A DNA stretch of 64,000 bases from Pseudobdellovibrionaceae bacterium (GTDB lineage Bacteria; Bdellovibrionota; Bdellovibrionia; Bdellovibrionales; UBA1609), in assembly GCA_947444305.1 (NCBI GenBank), contig CANEZP010000002.1, positions 1 to 64,000 on the forward strand, read 5' to 3'. Numbering within the stretch: position 1 is the first letter of the stretch; the number at the start of each line of letters is the position of its first letter. The translations under genes and the position numbers were made by a program. Positions 33,299-40,194 of this stretch are shown piece by piece. Below the pieces are notes generated by a model that did not search any database, was not told where the DNA came from, and saw only the letters and a list, made by a program, of their open reading frames with translations.

Positions 33299-33468
33299 AG
33301 AGACCCAGTATACCAGAGCCGAATCGGTCCGAGGAGGGGCCGGGCCGGGAGAATATTTTGCTCAATTGTAAGGAGCGAGATTTGGGGTGAGGAAAATTTG
33401 TTGACTCAATTCGTCATGGGCTTGGGGAGGGCGGCGGCTGGGCTTAGGTCGGGGCAAAAATGGGAGTG
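33299..33468. other. intergenic sequence before the palindrome array
   Basis: GC-rich, no gene or promoter recognised. It contains the shared upstream region of the CBS-domain gene on the minus strand. Confidence 0.4.
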
Positions 33469-33784
33469 TCTGTGTGAACAGAGTTGGGTTGCGGAAGCTC
33501 TGTATGAACAGAGTTGGATCTCGGACGCTCTGTATGAACAGAGTTGGATTCTGGATGTTCTGTATGAACAGAGTTGGATTCTGGATGTTCTGTATGAACA
33601 GAGTTGGATTGCGGATGTTCTGTATGAACAGAGTTGGATTGCGGATGTTCTGTATGAACAGAGTTGGATTGCGGATCTTCTGTATGAACAGAGTTGGATT
33701 GCGGATCTTCTGTATGAACAGAGTTGGATTGCGGATGTCTGTATGAACAGAGTTGGGTCCCGGACACTCTGTACGAACAGAGTT
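33469..33784. repeat. tandem array of eleven short palindromes with a 30-bp period
   Basis: Each unit holds TCTGT-ATGA-ACAGA (arms of 5-6 bp, loop 4) followed by GTTGG and a variable segment. Cores begin at 33469, 33499, 33529, 33559, 33589, 33619, 33649, 33679, 33709, 33738 and 33768. One interval is 29 bp because a T is missing. Central units are nearly identical and often identical in pairs; end units are diverged, the usual sign of expansion by unequal crossing-over or slippage. Because 30 is a multiple of three, several frames stay open, but none has a ribosome binding site. It lies between the cutA-CBS operon and the fusA terminator. Confidence 0.92.
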
Positions 33785-33808
33785 CATCCTCCCACCCAAA
33801 TTCTGGCC

Positions 33809-33838
33809 AAAAAAAAGCCGGGCATAACCCGGCTTTTT
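33809..33838 (-). terminator. Rho-independent terminator of fusA
   Basis: Stem of ten pairs (33813-33822 with 33828-33837, loop CATAA). On the minus strand it ends in eight T. It lies 30 bp after the fusA stop. Confidence 0.9.
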
Positions 33839-33867
33839 GAGTCAGAGCGCTTGCGCGTTCCGCTGGC

Positions 33868-35973
33868 TTACTTCTTCGCGTCTTCGGCGCGTTGCTTTTC
33901 GTACTTTTTGACCAGGTCTTCTTGGATATTGCGGGGGACCGGGGCGTACTTCGCGAATTCCATCGTAAATTCGCCTTTACCTTGGGTGCCTGAACGCAAT
34001 TCGGTCGAGAACCCGAACATTTCGGAAAGCGGAACTTCGGCTTCAACCGTTACGAATGCATCTTGAGTCTGCGTGCCGGTGATCATACCGCGGCGTTGGT
34101 TCACCTGACCCAAGATGTTCCCTTGGAACTCTTCGGGGCCGGAAACTTCGACCTTCATGATCGGCTCGAGCGCGGTCGGTTTAGCTTTGAAGTAGAATTC
34201 GCGGAAGGCGGCCATCGCGCAAATACGGAAGGCCATCTCGCTTGAATCCACATCGTGGTAAGCACCGTCGGTCAAAACCGCGCGGACGCCGACAACCGGA
34301 AACCCGATCAGAAGACCTTTGGCCATCTGTTCTTGGAAACCTTTGTCTACGGCCGGAATAAATTCGCGCGGGATTTTACCGCCCACGATTTTATTCTGGA
34401 ATTCGTAAGTCTTATCGGGGCTGTCGTAGGGCTCAAATTGCCCGATAACTTTCGCGAACTGACCCGAACCACCGGTTTGCTTCTTGTGCGTGTAATCGAA
34501 CGGCGTCGCTTGTCCGATCGTCTCGCGGTAAGCCACCTGCGGCTGGCCGGCGACGACTTCGCACGCGAATTCGCGCTTCATACGCTCGATGTAGATCTCT
34601 AAGTGAAGCTCGCCCATTCCGGAGATGATGGTCTCGGAAGATTCTTCGTCGCGGTGAACGCGGAACGTGGGATCTTCTTTACGGAACTTTTGCAAAGCCT
34701 TCGAGAAGTTCGCGGCGCCTTCTTTGCTCTTCGGCTGAACGGCCAAAGAGATAACGGCGTCGGGTACGAACATCGAGGTCATGGCAACGTTCGACTGACC
34801 GTCGGTGAACGTATCACCCGATGAACAATCGATACCGAACAGAGCAACGATATCGCCGGCGTAGGCGACTTCGATGTCGACCATTTCGTCGGCGTGCAGA
34901 CGCACCAAGCGCGGGATCTTCACTTTGCGGCCGTTGACCACGTTGGTGATGAAATCGCCCTTTTTCATCGTGCCTTGGTAAATGCGCATGTACGTGAGCT
35001 GACCGAAACGGCCATCTTCAAGTTTGAACGCCAAAGCAACGAGCGGCTTGTCGGGAGCGGAGGACAAGATGACTTTCGCTTCTTCTTTGTCGAGGTCCAA
35101 GCCTTCGTTGGTAACTTCAGAAGGATTGGGCAAGTATTCGGCAACGCCATCCAAAAGTTTTTGGACGCCGCGGTTTTTGTAAGCCGAACCCATGAAAACG
35201 GGAGTCAAGTTGAGCGCGAGCGTGCCTTTACGAATGGCCGCGCGAATTTCTTCTTTCGTGGGCTCTTCTTCGTTCAAGAATTTTTCGGCTACGAGGTCGT
35301 CGTGATCGGCAGCTTTACCGATCAACTCGTGATGATATTTTTTCGCTTGTTCCATCATGTCGGCGGGGATTTCTTTTTCGGTGATCGTTTCGCCGTTGGC
35401 GCCCGAAAAAGTGAAGGCCTTCATCTCGACCAAGTCGATGACGCCGTCATGTTTGTCTTCCAAACCGATCGGGATTTGCATGAGGACCGCGTTGTGACGC
35501 AGTTTATCGCGCAAAGCTTCAACGACGCGGAAGGGGTTCGCGCCCGCGCGATCCAACTTGTTGATGAAGGCCAAACGGGGAACTTTATAGCGGCGCATTT
35601 GACGATCGACGGTGATCGACTGCGATTGAACGCCGGCAACACCGCAAAGAACCAAGATCGCGCCGTCGAGAACGCGCAACGAACGCTCAACCTCGATGGT
35701 GAAATCCACGTGCCCGGGGGTGTCGATAATGTTGATGTTGATGTCTTTCCAGTGGACGTTGGTGGCGGCCGACTGGATCGTGATCCCGCGCTCTTGCTCG
35801 AGCTCCATGTGATCCATGGTGGCACCGACGCCGTCTTTACCTTTCACTTCGTGAATCTGGTGAATACGGCCGGTGTAGAATAGAATGCGTTCGGTCAGAG
35901 TGGTTTTGCCCGAATCAATGTGGGCGGAAATCCCGATGTTTCTGACCTGTTGGAGGTCCCATTTCTCAGCCAT
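33868..35973 (-). CDS. fusA: elongation factor G
   Basis: 701 residues from the ATG at 35973, preceded by GAGGAAGG; an upstream in-frame start at 36117 is not credible. Domain I carries the G motifs ([33 protein letters not shown]). Domain IV is at about 490-610 and the C-terminal ferredoxin-like domain V contains MGELHLEIY-type and [15 protein letters not shown] segments. The P-loop has Ser where many EF-Gs have Ala (AHIDSGKTT). It is not next to rpsL, rpsG or tuf. Divergent from recQ, with about 90 bp between the two starts. Confidence 0.96.
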
Positions 35974-36063: not shown

Positions 36064-37569
36064 ATGGAGATTATGCAGTTGCAAGAGCTTGAAGAAGTCG
36101 CAAGAACAACCGGACATTACCCGTTACGACCCGCACAGGAAAAGGCACTCCGGGCCTGGACCGAAGGACATAATCTCCTGCTCGTTTGGCCGACCGGTTC
36201 GGGCAAATCCTTGTGCTATCAATTGCCTGCGCTCGCCGGTTCCGGACTCACCCTGGTTATTTCACCGCTGATCGCTTTGATGGAAGATCAAGTGCACAAA
36301 GCCCGGGCACTCGGCTGGCCAATGACCTGTGTGCATTCTGCCGTAAGCAAGGGGGAGCGGACGTCGCGCCTCAAGAAAGTGGCCGCCGGGCAGATCAAAT
36401 TGCTCTACGTGACCCCGGAACGTTTCCGATCCGAGGAATTCCTCGAGATGCTCAAGGGCTTGAAGGTTACGATGCTGGCCGTCGACGAAGCGCACTGTAT
36501 ATCCCAGTGGGGTCACGATTTCCGGCCGGATTATTCAAGGCTCGGGGAAATCCGGGCGCTGTTGGGCCATCCCCAAACCATGGCGCTGACCGCCACCGCC
36601 ACGCGGGAAGTGCAGGCCGACATCCTTAAGCAACTCGGCATCGAAAAAGACGCGCAAACTTTTTGGGAAGGCGTTGAACGGCCGAATCTTTATCTCTCGG
36701 GCGTAGAATTCGCCGACGATGACGACAAGCTCGAGGCGGTGGCCGAGTGGCTGCGCGAAGTGCAGGGGCCGAAAATTTTGTATTTCACGCTCATCTCAAC
36801 GCTGGTGCGCGTTTCCGAATGGCTCGAGACTAAGGGTTTCGTGCACAAGACCTACCACGGCGACATGGACGACCGCGCCCGCAACCGCAGCCTTAAAGAA
36901 TTTTTGTGGGGCGGGACCGAGCTGATCCTCGCCACGCCCGCGTTCGGTTTGGGCGTCGATAAGCCCGACATTCGCGGCGTCGCGCACTTCGAAATGCCGG
37001 GCTCGATCGAAGCGTATTTCCAAGAGGTGGGCCGCGCCGGTCGCGATCAAGCGCCTTCGCGCTGCCGGTTATTTTACGCGCAAGAAGATTTAGAAACGCA
37101 AATGAGCTTCATCGACACGCTGACGCCCGATCCCGATTTTGTGCGCGCGACTTATAAGTTGCTCGCGCTGTGGAAAGACCGTTTGAACGTGACGAAGCTC
37201 GATGATCTGCGTGAGCAACTCAGCTTTAAGAACAAGCGTGATTACCGGCTGGAGACCGCGCTTAGTTTTCTCGACCGTTGGGGCGTGATCCAGTTTCCGC
37301 ACCGGCGTTTGGATAAGCTGACGTTCTTGCGTGAACTTGAAGAAACCGATCTCAGCGCCGAGTTGTGGAAGGCGCGCAAACTCTCTTTACAAAAGAAATT
37401 GATGAGCTTGGTGACTTGGTTTCGCAGCGAAGATTGCCGCAAAGTCGGTATCTACGATTACTTCGGTTGGAACGCCGACCTCGCGGCCTCGGGCGGTGAG
37501 GCGAGGGCTTGCGGTTTTTGCGATCGCTGCGATGAAAAACGCATAGCAAAGGAAACGGAAGAAACATGA
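36064..37569 (+). CDS. recQ: short RecQ-family ATP-dependent DNA helicase
   Basis: 501 residues; E. coli RecQ is about 610. Helicase motifs are complete: PTGSGKS at 43-49, [17 protein letters not shown] from 141, and [11 protein letters not shown] near 330. The zinc cluster survives (Cys in the helix around [11 protein letters not shown] and the C-terminal EDCRK and CGFCDRC). The winged-helix and HRDC domains are missing, because the protein ends just after the last Cys pair. GGAG precedes the ATG. Its TGA overlaps the aat ATG (ATGA), so both are translated together. Confidence 0.92.
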
Positions 37570-38240
37570 AGCTGTTCGAAGGGCACCTGCGTTCATTTCC
37601 CGATCCGCGGATGACCTTGGACGAGGGCATCCTCGACATCAGCGATGACCTGCGCGTCGAACGGCTGCTCGAGGCTTACAGCTTCGGAATCTTTCCTTGG
37701 CCGCACGAAGATTTGCCGACGCTGTGGTATTGCCCGGTCGAACGGGGCGTGCTGGATTTTGCTTCGTTTAAAATTCCGCATTCGCTGCAAAAATTTATGC
37801 GCAAGTGCACGTGGACCGTGACGATGAACCAAGCCTTCGACCGCGTGCTCGACGAATGCGCGGCGGCCCCGCGGCCCGAGCAGAAAGGCACTTGGATCAC
37901 GGAGAAATTGATCGATGCCTATCGCGATTTTCACCGTGCGGGTTACGCGCATTCGGTTGAAGTTTGGGACGGGGAAGACTTGGTCGGTGGTCTTTACGGC
38001 GTATACGTCGGCGGCGTTTTTTGCGGCGAGAGTATGTTCTTTCACAAATCGAACGCTTCGAAGTTCGCGCTGGTGAAGTTGATCGAGTTTTTGCGCGGCA
38101 AAGGCTTTAGCTGGATGGATATTCAGATGGTTACGCCGCTGATGGAAATGCTGGGCGGCAAATATATTTCGCGCGAACAATTCTTGGCGCGTCTAGAGAA
38201 GGCCAAGCGTTCGGCCATCGAAGTCGAATTTAAAATTTAA
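37566..38240 (+). CDS. aat: leucyl/phenylalanyl-tRNA--protein transferase
   Basis: 224 residues. Diagnostic motifs are AYSFGIFPW at 37-45, LWYCPVERGVL near 53, GTWITEKLIDAYRDFHRAGY and GVFCGESMFF, with the conserved Glu at 155. It attaches Leu or Phe to N-terminal Arg/Lys, the first step of the bacterial N-degron route to ClpS/ClpAP. The usual C-terminal motif is replaced by MVTPLMEMLGGKYISREQF. The 3' end overlaps the convergent PilZ gene by 11 bp. A divergent exported relative lies 0.7 kb downstream. Confidence 0.94.
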   Translation: MKLFEGHLRSFPDPRMTLDEGILDISDDLRVERLLEAYSFGIFPWPHEDLPTLWYCPVERGVLDFASFKIPHSLQKFMRKCTWTVTMNQAFDRVLDECAAAPRPEQKGTWITEKLIDAYRDFHRAGYAHSVEVWDGEDLVGGLYGVYVGGVFCGESMFFHKSNASKFALVKLIEFLRGKGFSWMDIQMVTPLMEMLGGKYISREQFLARLEKAKRSAIEVEFKI

Positions 38241-38823
38241 AACGTTCGCCCCAGGGGATGGTTTGATTCGGGTCGTAATTTCCGCCCGGTCTCGTCCAAT
38301 AATAAAGTAATCCGAACGCCACCGCGGTGAGCACGAGGTACGCCATGAACTGCAGAAAATGCGTGAACATGAGCGCGCGGTAGTACATCCAAGTGCGGTA
38401 ACGCTGATCGCGCGCCGCTTTAATAAAACTGCCTTCGATGCCTTTGCGTAACGAACGCGAATGTCCTTCGGGTAACTTTTCGAAAGTAGCGGCGACGAGC
38501 ACGCGTTGTTCGTCGAAGAAGGCATCGCGTTTACCCCACCAGCGATTCGGCTGGTATGTTTGCACTCGTACGACGCGCGCCCACCAAGCGATTTGCTCGC
38601 CGTTCGGGATCGGAATTTCAACCATGATCAAATCATCGATTTCGAAACGCTGACTGCTCGTCGTGGCGAACGCAACGCCGGTCTCGGATAAATTCATGAG
38701 CAGCGTTTGCTGCACGGTCGATAGATTTCCGTCCTGCAGCCCGAAGCGCATGGTGTTGCGATCTTGCGGGCGCAAGATGTAGCGGGGAGCACGTGGATGA
38801 TAGCGACGAATTTTTTCAGCCAT
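38230..38823 (-). CDS. PilZ-domain protein with a C-terminal membrane helix
   Basis: 197 residues. The PilZ domain is at about 15-120: an Arg-rich entry (RRYHPRAPRY), LLMNLSETGVAFATT for the N/D-x-S-x-x-G motif, and a beta barrel ending VLVAATFEKL. A membrane helix follows at about 150-172 (FMAYLVLTAVAFGLLYYW). PilZ domains bind cyclic di-GMP; here the first Arg motif is only partly conserved, so binding should be treated as likely rather than shown. Divergent from the exported Aat-like gene. Confidence 0.82.
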   Translation of the reverse strand: MAEKIRRYHPRAPRYILRPQDRNTMRFGLQDGNLSTVQQTLLMNLSETGVAFATTSSQRFEIDDLIMVEIPIPNGEQIAWWARVVRVQTYQPNRWWGKRDAFFDEQRVLVAATFEKLPEGHSRSLRKGIEGSFIKAARDQRYRTWMYYRALMFTHFLQFMAYLVLTAVAFGLLYYWTRPGGNYDPNQTIPWGERFKF

Positions 38824-38922
38824 TACGTTTGTTTATCGGCTAATGCGGCGCTTTGGTTGACACCCCCTAGGCAAAAGTACTGCAGGCTGCTATACAAGCC
38901 CCTCAATCTTTGGAGGTTACCC

Positions 38923-40194
38923 GTGCTTTGGTCCAGACGTGTTCTGCTGGTTGTCGCTATATCGTTTCTCCCACCGCAAGCGATGGCTAAGTTCACCTCC
39001 GAAACTTCGCAGCAATCTTTTTGCGGCTGGCTTCTCAGCTCAACCGTTTCGCCGGCTAAGCAAGCGTTTGAGCGCCAATTGTTTTTTACGAAGCGGAAGA
39101 TGGGCCTTGAATACGTGCGAGCCTCCGGCTTGGGCCAACGCGGTTTTTTAGATTCATCGCCTGAGCAAACCGCGGAGAATAGCGAAAAGTACGAAGCGAT
39201 GGGGATTCATTGGTGGGGTCATTCGTTCGCCGTGAAAAAAACGATTGAAGAGGCGCGTGAGCACGATTCTAAATTCACCGGCTTGAGCAAAATCATGTAT
39301 TTGATCAGCGACGTTGACGTTTCGGACCTCGACGACAGCACACCGAAAGAAATCATCCAAGCACGCTTTAAGGAAGTTGTCGCGAACGGTAAAATGGTTG
39401 GCTGGGATGACAGCGAAGCGATGATCACGGGCAATCCGATCCCCGCGAAGTTTGTTGAAGCCGACATGAAGCGGGTGCGCGGGATGGTGCTTCCCGAGAA
39501 GGTCGACTACTTTACCCTCGACGATCGCGGCGCGCGTTTTACCAATTCGGGTTGGGTATTCACCAAGATTCGCGGCGAGCTGACGTACGCCACGCTGTTC
39601 GAATCAAATTCAAAGACGATTCGCGACCTCGAATCCAAAGCGCGCAACAAAGCTCGGAAAGGTTACACCTTCACTTTCAACGAGAACTTCACCGAGGCGC
39701 TTAACGCAGCCCGTGACCAGCTCCGCGTGGTTAAAAATCCCGTAATCGGCAAACCCGAAAAGTCTCCCGCGAACTCACGTTACTTAATCGATCCGGACAC
39801 GTACAATCTCGCGCTCGAAGGTTACAAAACGGGACACTTCTTCAGCGTGGAAACCCGCAAGAACGGTCAGCTCGTGGGCGGCATCATCGGCTCACGGCAG
39901 GGGAACCTCATCAAGCTCGATACGATTTTTTACGGCTACGAAGATAAACCGGACGGAACTTTCAAGTCGTTGGTTGATGACGCGAAGCTAGCGGTTATCG
40001 CGGCGATGAAGCGTTTGCATGCGCACAAAATTAATGTGGCCGACGTAGGCATGGTGACGCCGTTTACCGCATCGATGAAAGGTAAATATGTTTCGGGGAC
40101 GACGTTTCTGAAACATCTGAAAGAGCTAAAAGCACTCGGGCCGGTCGAGATTGATTTCACTACCCCGTGGGTGCCCGAGCCGGTCGAGAATTAA
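38923..40194 (+). CDS. exported Aat-like (leucyl/phenylalanyl-tRNA-transferase fold) protein
   Basis: 423 residues from a GTG at 38923, preceded by TGGAGG; the start gives a signal peptide (LWSRRVLLVVAISFLPPQA, then MAKF). Residues about 248-412 align with the nearby Aat: TFTFNENFTEAL with TVTMNQAFDRVL, HFFSVE..GQLVGG with AHSVEV..EDLVGG, and VGMVTP..GKYVS..FL with IQMVTP..GKYIS..FL. The Aat Glu155-Ser156 pair becomes Asp333-Thr334. FGIFPW and the W-x-x-P-x-x-RG motif are absent. The N-terminal 230 residues match nothing I know. A tRNA-dependent reaction is unlikely outside the cytoplasm, so this is a re-purposed fold. Confidence 0.8.
   Translation: MLWSRRVLLVVAISFLPPQAMAKFTSETSQQSFCGWLLSSTVSPAKQAFERQLFFTKRKMGLEYVRASGLGQRGFLDSSPEQTAENSEKYEAMGIHWWGHSFAVKKTIEEAREHDSKFTGLSKIMYLISDVDVSDLDDSTPKEIIQARFKEVVANGKMVGWDDSEAMITGNPIPAKFVEADMKRVRGMVLPEKVDYFTLDDRGARFTNSGWVFTKIRGELTYATLFESNSKTIRDLESKARNKARKGYTFTFNENFTEALNAARDQLRVVKNPVIGKPEKSPANSRYLIDPDTYNLALEGYKTGHFFSVETRKNGQLVGGIIGSRQGNLIKLDTIFYGYEDKPDGTFKSLVDDAKLAVIAAMKRLHAHKINVADVGMVTPFTASMKGKYVSGTTFLKHLKELKALGPVEIDFTTPWVPEPVEN

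Follow-up and report, generated by a model that had tools for sequence, protein, structure and literature searches.

P0001, a gene on the plus strand of the window (the whole 64,000-nucleotide stretch of DNA that was analysed), encodes an apparently exported protein that combines a signal peptide with an Aat fold of the GNAT type, and its active site is altered to the point that an L/F-transferase role is no longer expected, which agrees with the core of the original prediction. Aat (L/F-transferase) is a cytoplasmic enzyme that takes amino acids from charged tRNA and attaches them to proteins. P0001 is one of several Aat relatives with signal peptides, which goes beyond the original prediction, and these fall into two classes: class I consists of a signal peptide and an Aat with intact catalytic positions and no insertion, and in class II the signal peptide is followed by an N-terminal box diverged from that of Aat, an insertion of ~105 aa, and an Aat GNAT domain. 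Our literature search found neither an exported Aat nor an earlier description. If Aats are exported, some of them with intact catalytic positions, then the fold is either used without tRNA or delivered into another cell. P0001 keeps the fold but lacks a key catalytic residue, so that it probably has a new role outside the cytoplasm. Bdellovibrionales, the order of the source genome, includes the predator Bdellovibrio, and from sequence and models we tentatively read P0001, a class II protein, as a secreted transferase of the GNAT type, or a binder, that derives from an exported Aat and is perhaps directed at prey.

The open reading frame of P0001 runs from a GTG start at 38923 to a stop codon at 40192-40194 and encodes 423 aa, and the location, the signal peptide, and the similarity to Aat are as originally predicted. 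The N-terminus, MLWSRRVLLVVAISFLPPQAMA|KF, has the pattern of a signal peptide with likely cleavage after AMA (residue 22), and its predicted export from the cytoplasm is well supported by this sequence and by the relatives; signal peptides in P0001 and its relatives were called by eye and with a simple rule. The SRRVLL within the signal peptide makes Tat export possible. The features of the gene and of the neighbouring aat are as follows.

37566-38240, plus strand: ordinary cytoplasmic Aat, a neighbour and not the direct parent (PF03588 E 6e-67, TIGR00667 over cut-off, tree, AU test)
38912-38916, plus strand: Shine-Dalgarno-like GGAGG, 6 nt 5' of the GTG start (sequence)
38923-40194, plus strand: exported Aat-like gene P0001, class II, 423 aa and stop (ORF, Pfam)
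38923-38988, plus strand: predicted signal peptide, residues 1-22, MLWSRRVLLVVAISFLPPQAMA (sequence; signal peptides in relatives)
39022-39024, plus strand: invariant lone cysteine, residue 34 (15/15 class II; counterpart Cys in 9/9 class I)
39127-39222, plus strand: diverged Aat N-terminal box GLGQRGFL..P..T.E....A...GIHWWG, residues 69-100 (profile comparison, shuffles, structures)
39229-39546, plus strand: class II insertion of ~105 aa, from the N-terminal box to the W..P..RG box, without a family match
39547-39579, plus strand: NSGWVFTKIRG, residues 209-219, counterpart of the Aat W(F)xPPxRGV box (class II profile alignment)
39583-40137, plus strand: Aat-type GNAT domain, limits approximate (Pfam residues 242-388; Z 20.3 to 2dpt_A)
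39775-39783, plus strand: SRY, residues 285-287, replacing Aat GTW111 (active-site alignment)
39919-39924, plus strand: Asp333-Thr334, replacing Glu156-Ser157 (active-site alignment)
40042-40050, plus strand: Asp374-Val-Gly376, replacing Aat Asp186-x-Gln188 (active-site alignment)

The Pfam match of P0001 to PF03588 covers residues 242-388 in the C-terminal half (E 5.7e-8, 32.9 bits against a curated cut-off of 22.7), and most of its relatives likewise exceed this cut-off. By comparison with true L/F-transferases, P0001 scores far too low on the NCBI equivalog TIGR00667 (23.3 bits, cut-off 143.55). BLASTP aligned the neighbouring Aat with P0001 over only 59 residues in the C-terminal part (31% identity, E 6e-7), among them MVTP..GKY.S..FL; this ending had been called unusual but is common among ordinary Aats of Bdellovibrionales. 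The AlphaFold2 model of P0001 has a mean pLDDT of 63.8, with mostly 75-90 in the GNAT domain and a poorly modelled insertion. Structure comparison with Aat and FemABX proteins, a check proposed with the original prediction, placed the model closest to E. coli Aat (Z 20.3, 2.6 A, 170 residues), as compared to a Z of about 12 for FemX. The model of a second class II protein (mean pLDDT 76.8) overlays residues 6-232 of E. coli Aat (219/228 residues, 3.5 A, Z 17.5), and these models show that class II keeps the whole predicted Aat fold behind a signal peptide.

The aminoacyl-tRNA-binding N-terminal motifs had been considered gone, but profile comparison and structures reveal a diverged counterpart that is split from the rest by the insertion. 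The Aat box GL....L....L.EAY..GIFPW and the class II box RGFL..P..TPE....A...G..WWG were aligned by hhalign with a probability of 79% and a score of 31.1, which none of 200 column shuffles reached (best 18.7), while a reversed profile scored 10.7. In this box, W98 of P0001 is the counterpart of W49 in E. coli Aat. From the GW..P..RG box onward, the class II profile is alignable to ordinary Aats; the insertion between the two boxes, ~105 aa in P0001, is variable in length in other class II proteins. The proposed link to FemX and the cell wall holds at the level of the superfamily fold only: FemABX/FemX (Weissella, 4ii9, 1ne9) belongs to the GNAT superfamily and, like Aat, forms peptide bonds in an aminoacyl-tRNA-dependent reaction, but the fold match of P0001 is much weaker (Z 12 versus 20 for Aat), FemAB Pfam models gave zero matches on P0001 at E up to 1, and FemX has two GNAT-like domains and works in the cytoplasm. 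The aminoacyl-tRNA-dependent peptide synthases Sbb17 and Sba18 (9wqw, 9wqy) also have a related GNAT domain (Z about 12.9), whereas identity is 13% and they are biosynthetic enzymes without known export.

We compared the active sites of nine class I and 12 class II proteins in E. coli Aat numbering. In E. coli Aat, Gln188 (paired with Asp186), Trp49, and Trp111 are residues which, from its structures, we take to matter for catalysis or aminoacyl-adenosine binding. P0001 resembles Aat (PF03588, TIGR00667; E. coli 2z3k, 2dps) in the N-terminal box, the W..P..RG box, and the GNAT domain, and it keeps W58, S131, E133, and Asp186; it differs in the signal peptide, the lone cysteine, and the insertion, and by replacement of T110 with Arg, W111 with Tyr, E156-S157 with Asp-Thr, and Q188 with Gly (D186-x-Q188 reads D-V-G). 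Thus, only Asp remains of the Asp186/Gln188 pair and only the Trp49 counterpart of the two Trp residues, and the charge of the tRNA-contacting basic helix of Aat is only partly kept. The review PMC4810233 describes the L/F-transferase reaction as substrate-assisted peptide-bond formation and does not cover Gln188, Trp49, or Trp111. Ordinary Leu/Phe transfer by P0001 is unlikely, judging from the alignment, because Gln188 is Gly and GTW is SRY. The change of the catalytic Glu-Ser to Asp-Thr, on which the original prediction relied, is indeed present but not decisive next to these two; P0001 shares Asp-Thr only with the class II proteins G002 and G362b, and most other class II proteins have Asp-Ser or Glu-Ser.

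In class I, by contrast, W58, W111, E156, S157, D186, and Q188 are present in each of the nine proteins. At position 188, the 12 class II proteins have Gly in eight cases and Glu in one, and Gln is kept in the C21 protein of the source genome, G023c, and G362b. GTW reads [GSN]R[YFMV] in most class II proteins, and its Arg (R286, replacing Aat T110) is invariant (15/15). C34, W98, A111, N253, Q266, R268, R286, G304, E310, Y337, and M377 are nearly invariant in class II, and such strong conservation at other positions argues against mere decay. A cysteine lies a few to about 30 residues past the signal peptide in all 24 exported proteins compared (15/15 class II and 9/9 class I), outside the lipobox position, and many class II proteins have zero other cysteines in the mature chain. 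Exported proteins of this genome do not generally carry such lone early cysteines (four, with 1.6 expected). We also considered "signal peptide plus C..L[LF]" as a genome-wide sorting mark, which was too weak (4/161 signal-peptide-like proteins in about 0.49 Mb).

The source genome (4.17 Mb, 29 contigs) encodes five PF03588 proteins, namely one cytoplasmic Aat and four with signal peptides, and those besides P0001 are on contigs C6, C21, and C15. The C21 and C15 proteins are class II; the start codon of the former is perhaps ATT, with a signal peptide encoded by the upstream frame. The C6 gene (G000:C6:180730-181584; L053:4731-5585, plus strand) encodes a complete class I Aat behind a signal peptide, with intact catalytic positions. 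Class I genes occur in two congeners, next to an exported DUF4258-like protein in the source genome (G000) and a similar-looking one in G003. The source genome has two ClpS genes (G000:C15:74128-74364 and G000:C7:171560-171793).

There are at least nine class I genes (L053, L044, L048, L049, L050, L051, L052, L091, and L099), all of the same order, and at least 15 class II proteins in Bdellovibrionota, the source genome included. Strong class II matches were found in 5/144 genomes of the class and 6/369 of the phylum, and weaker ones in two more (G015 and G098); the named relatives are the Bdellovibrionales MAGs HKST-UBA10 and g2_MAG_00005, which assigns the window to this order. Other phyla were sampled through plasmids and phages and by a one-motif profile scan, which found these two relatives only and is too narrow to show absence outside the phylum. 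Genome G023 (1.8 Mb, 91% complete) carries three class II genes in tandem on contig C71 (L045; L105:5146-9122), and neither Aat nor ClpS was detected in it at this completeness, which suggests that class II is independent of the cell's own N-degron pathway. Genomes of g38 (family f8), probably the genus Bdellovibrio, have a single Aat each, so the family is presumably not required for predation. Class II proteins also occur in longer forms: one (L055:4046-5851, minus strand) has a C-terminal region of ~180 aa without a Pfam match, and another of 680 aa (L090:2101-4140, plus strand) has an apparent second GNAT-like copy.

We propose that, in this lineage, an Aat came to carry a signal peptide and was then used outside the cytoplasm. 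The class II pocket would subsequently have changed, with the loss of Gln188-assisted Leu/Phe transfer. It may still bind a related ligand with an aminoacyl or peptidyl end, possibly carried by RNA, and the protein would be either a GNAT-type transferase of acyl or aminoacyl groups or a binder. Its lone cysteine, close to the mature N-terminus, probably helps to anchor, pair, or assemble the exported protein. Because Bdellovibrionales includes bacterial predators and a type II secretin (GspD) scores over cut-off in the genome, the protein would most likely act in the prey cell or where predator and prey meet, as foreign aminoacyl-tRNA and peptides can be found there; this prey-directed step is the least certain part of the proposal.

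Class I is the more surprising half of the family. Charged tRNA, which Aat needs, is not known to occur outside the cytoplasm, nor is a periplasmic aminoacyl donor known. An exported enzyme with an intact active site would need charged tRNA, for which another cell is the only plentiful outside source. The original prediction that an exported Aat fold cannot use tRNA is valid if the protein never reaches the cytoplasm of another cell, but not otherwise. A full version of this idea, in which the family consists of aminoacyl transferases that depend on tRNA (active in class I and remodelled in class II), are exported into prey, and use the prey's charged tRNAs on prey proteins or peptides, seems to us improbable as it stands. 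Secretion of effectors that act on prey has been proposed for predators of this group (PMC11055950, PMC10225642), and PMC10225642 lists how Bdellovibrio reaches prey cytoplasmic contents as an open question, for which the exported Aat genes are concrete candidates.

The main rival is a tRNA-free role in the producer's own envelope, with the remodelled GNAT pocket acting as an enzyme or binder in the periplasm on peptides or peptidoglycan stems, or with another acyl donor. We consider this possible although doubtful: signal peptides are found throughout the family, loss of Gln188 and Trp111 suits a tRNA-free reaction, FemX and MprF have the superfamily fold in common, and the patchy distribution suits a niche trait, whereas the similarity to Aat lies far above that to FemX, a known periplasmic aminoacyl donor is lacking, and class I keeps a full Aat active site that such a role does not need. 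P0001 could also be a secreted pseudo-enzyme whose fold is kept only for binding (peptide N-termini, tRNA, or tRNA fragments), e.g., as an adaptor or scavenging protein. The frequent Gly at position 188 is consistent with this, as is the presence of large insertions in some copies and of a 694-codon frame that seems to hold a second copy in degenerate form; the nearly invariant class II positions, including the Arg in place of Thr110, look like selection on a changed active site instead, and three class II proteins retain Gln, which makes this explanation unlikely.

If the hydrophobic N-terminus were a membrane anchor or the product of a wrong start, P0001 might work in the cytoplasm. A longer in-frame start does exist at 38764, but the Shine-Dalgarno-like sequence precedes the GTG at 38923, relatives at about 20-30% identity also carry signal peptides, and the matching cysteine just past them is absent there from the cytoplasmic Aat, and we regard this possibility as very unlikely. 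Descent from the neighbouring aat by tandem duplication and acquisition of a signal peptide, the origin put forward in the original prediction, has hardly any credibility left. The two genes are 0.68 kb apart on the same strand, P0001 being downstream with a PilZ-domain-like gene on the other strand in between (38230-38823), and they have C-terminal motifs in common. However, a tree built from the core region common to these proteins (48 rows, 171 columns; unrooted and without information on which form is older) sets class II on one side of a branch with support 100/97, separate from all Aats and class I, and pairs P0001 with the class II protein that a congener encodes at a different locus (91/92). 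This phylogeny, also among the checks suggested earlier, rejects P0001 and the adjacent Aat as one clade in the AU test (lnL 95 lower, p 0.0002), while a single clade of all exported proteins (p 0.35) or of class I (p 0.25) is not rejected. Congener G003 keeps the order EF-G, recQ, aat, PilZ, cNMP, ankyrin, tolQ, exbD with PilZ and cNMP 28 bp apart and no P0001, so that P0001 either entered between these two genes or was lost from G003. Together, tree and gene order contradict the adjacent aat as the parent, and the closeness of the two genes looks like coincidence.

The base composition of P0001 (GC 0.525, GC3 0.642) is like that of its neighbours, and we rejected a recent foreign origin on this ground. 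A defence, phage, or plasmid origin was also rejected, as P0001 had no match in PADLOC or PHROGs (anti-phage defence and phage protein families) and the searches of phages and plasmids gave zero matches.

In congener G002, a RimJ/RimL-like GNAT acetyltransferase (PF13302; L086:2231-2899, minus strand), another enzyme of cytoplasmic type, carries a signal peptide and a GECASLLL start and is encoded divergently from the class II gene. The aat-PilZ region of G003 took up a different exported gene, which lies between the two and encodes a 384-aa protein with no Pfam match (L135:5766-6920, minus strand). Within the window, short tandem repeats at 33398-34066, by the 3' end of the EF-G gene, translate as YEQSWIADVL and NSVHTEHPQS on opposite strands.
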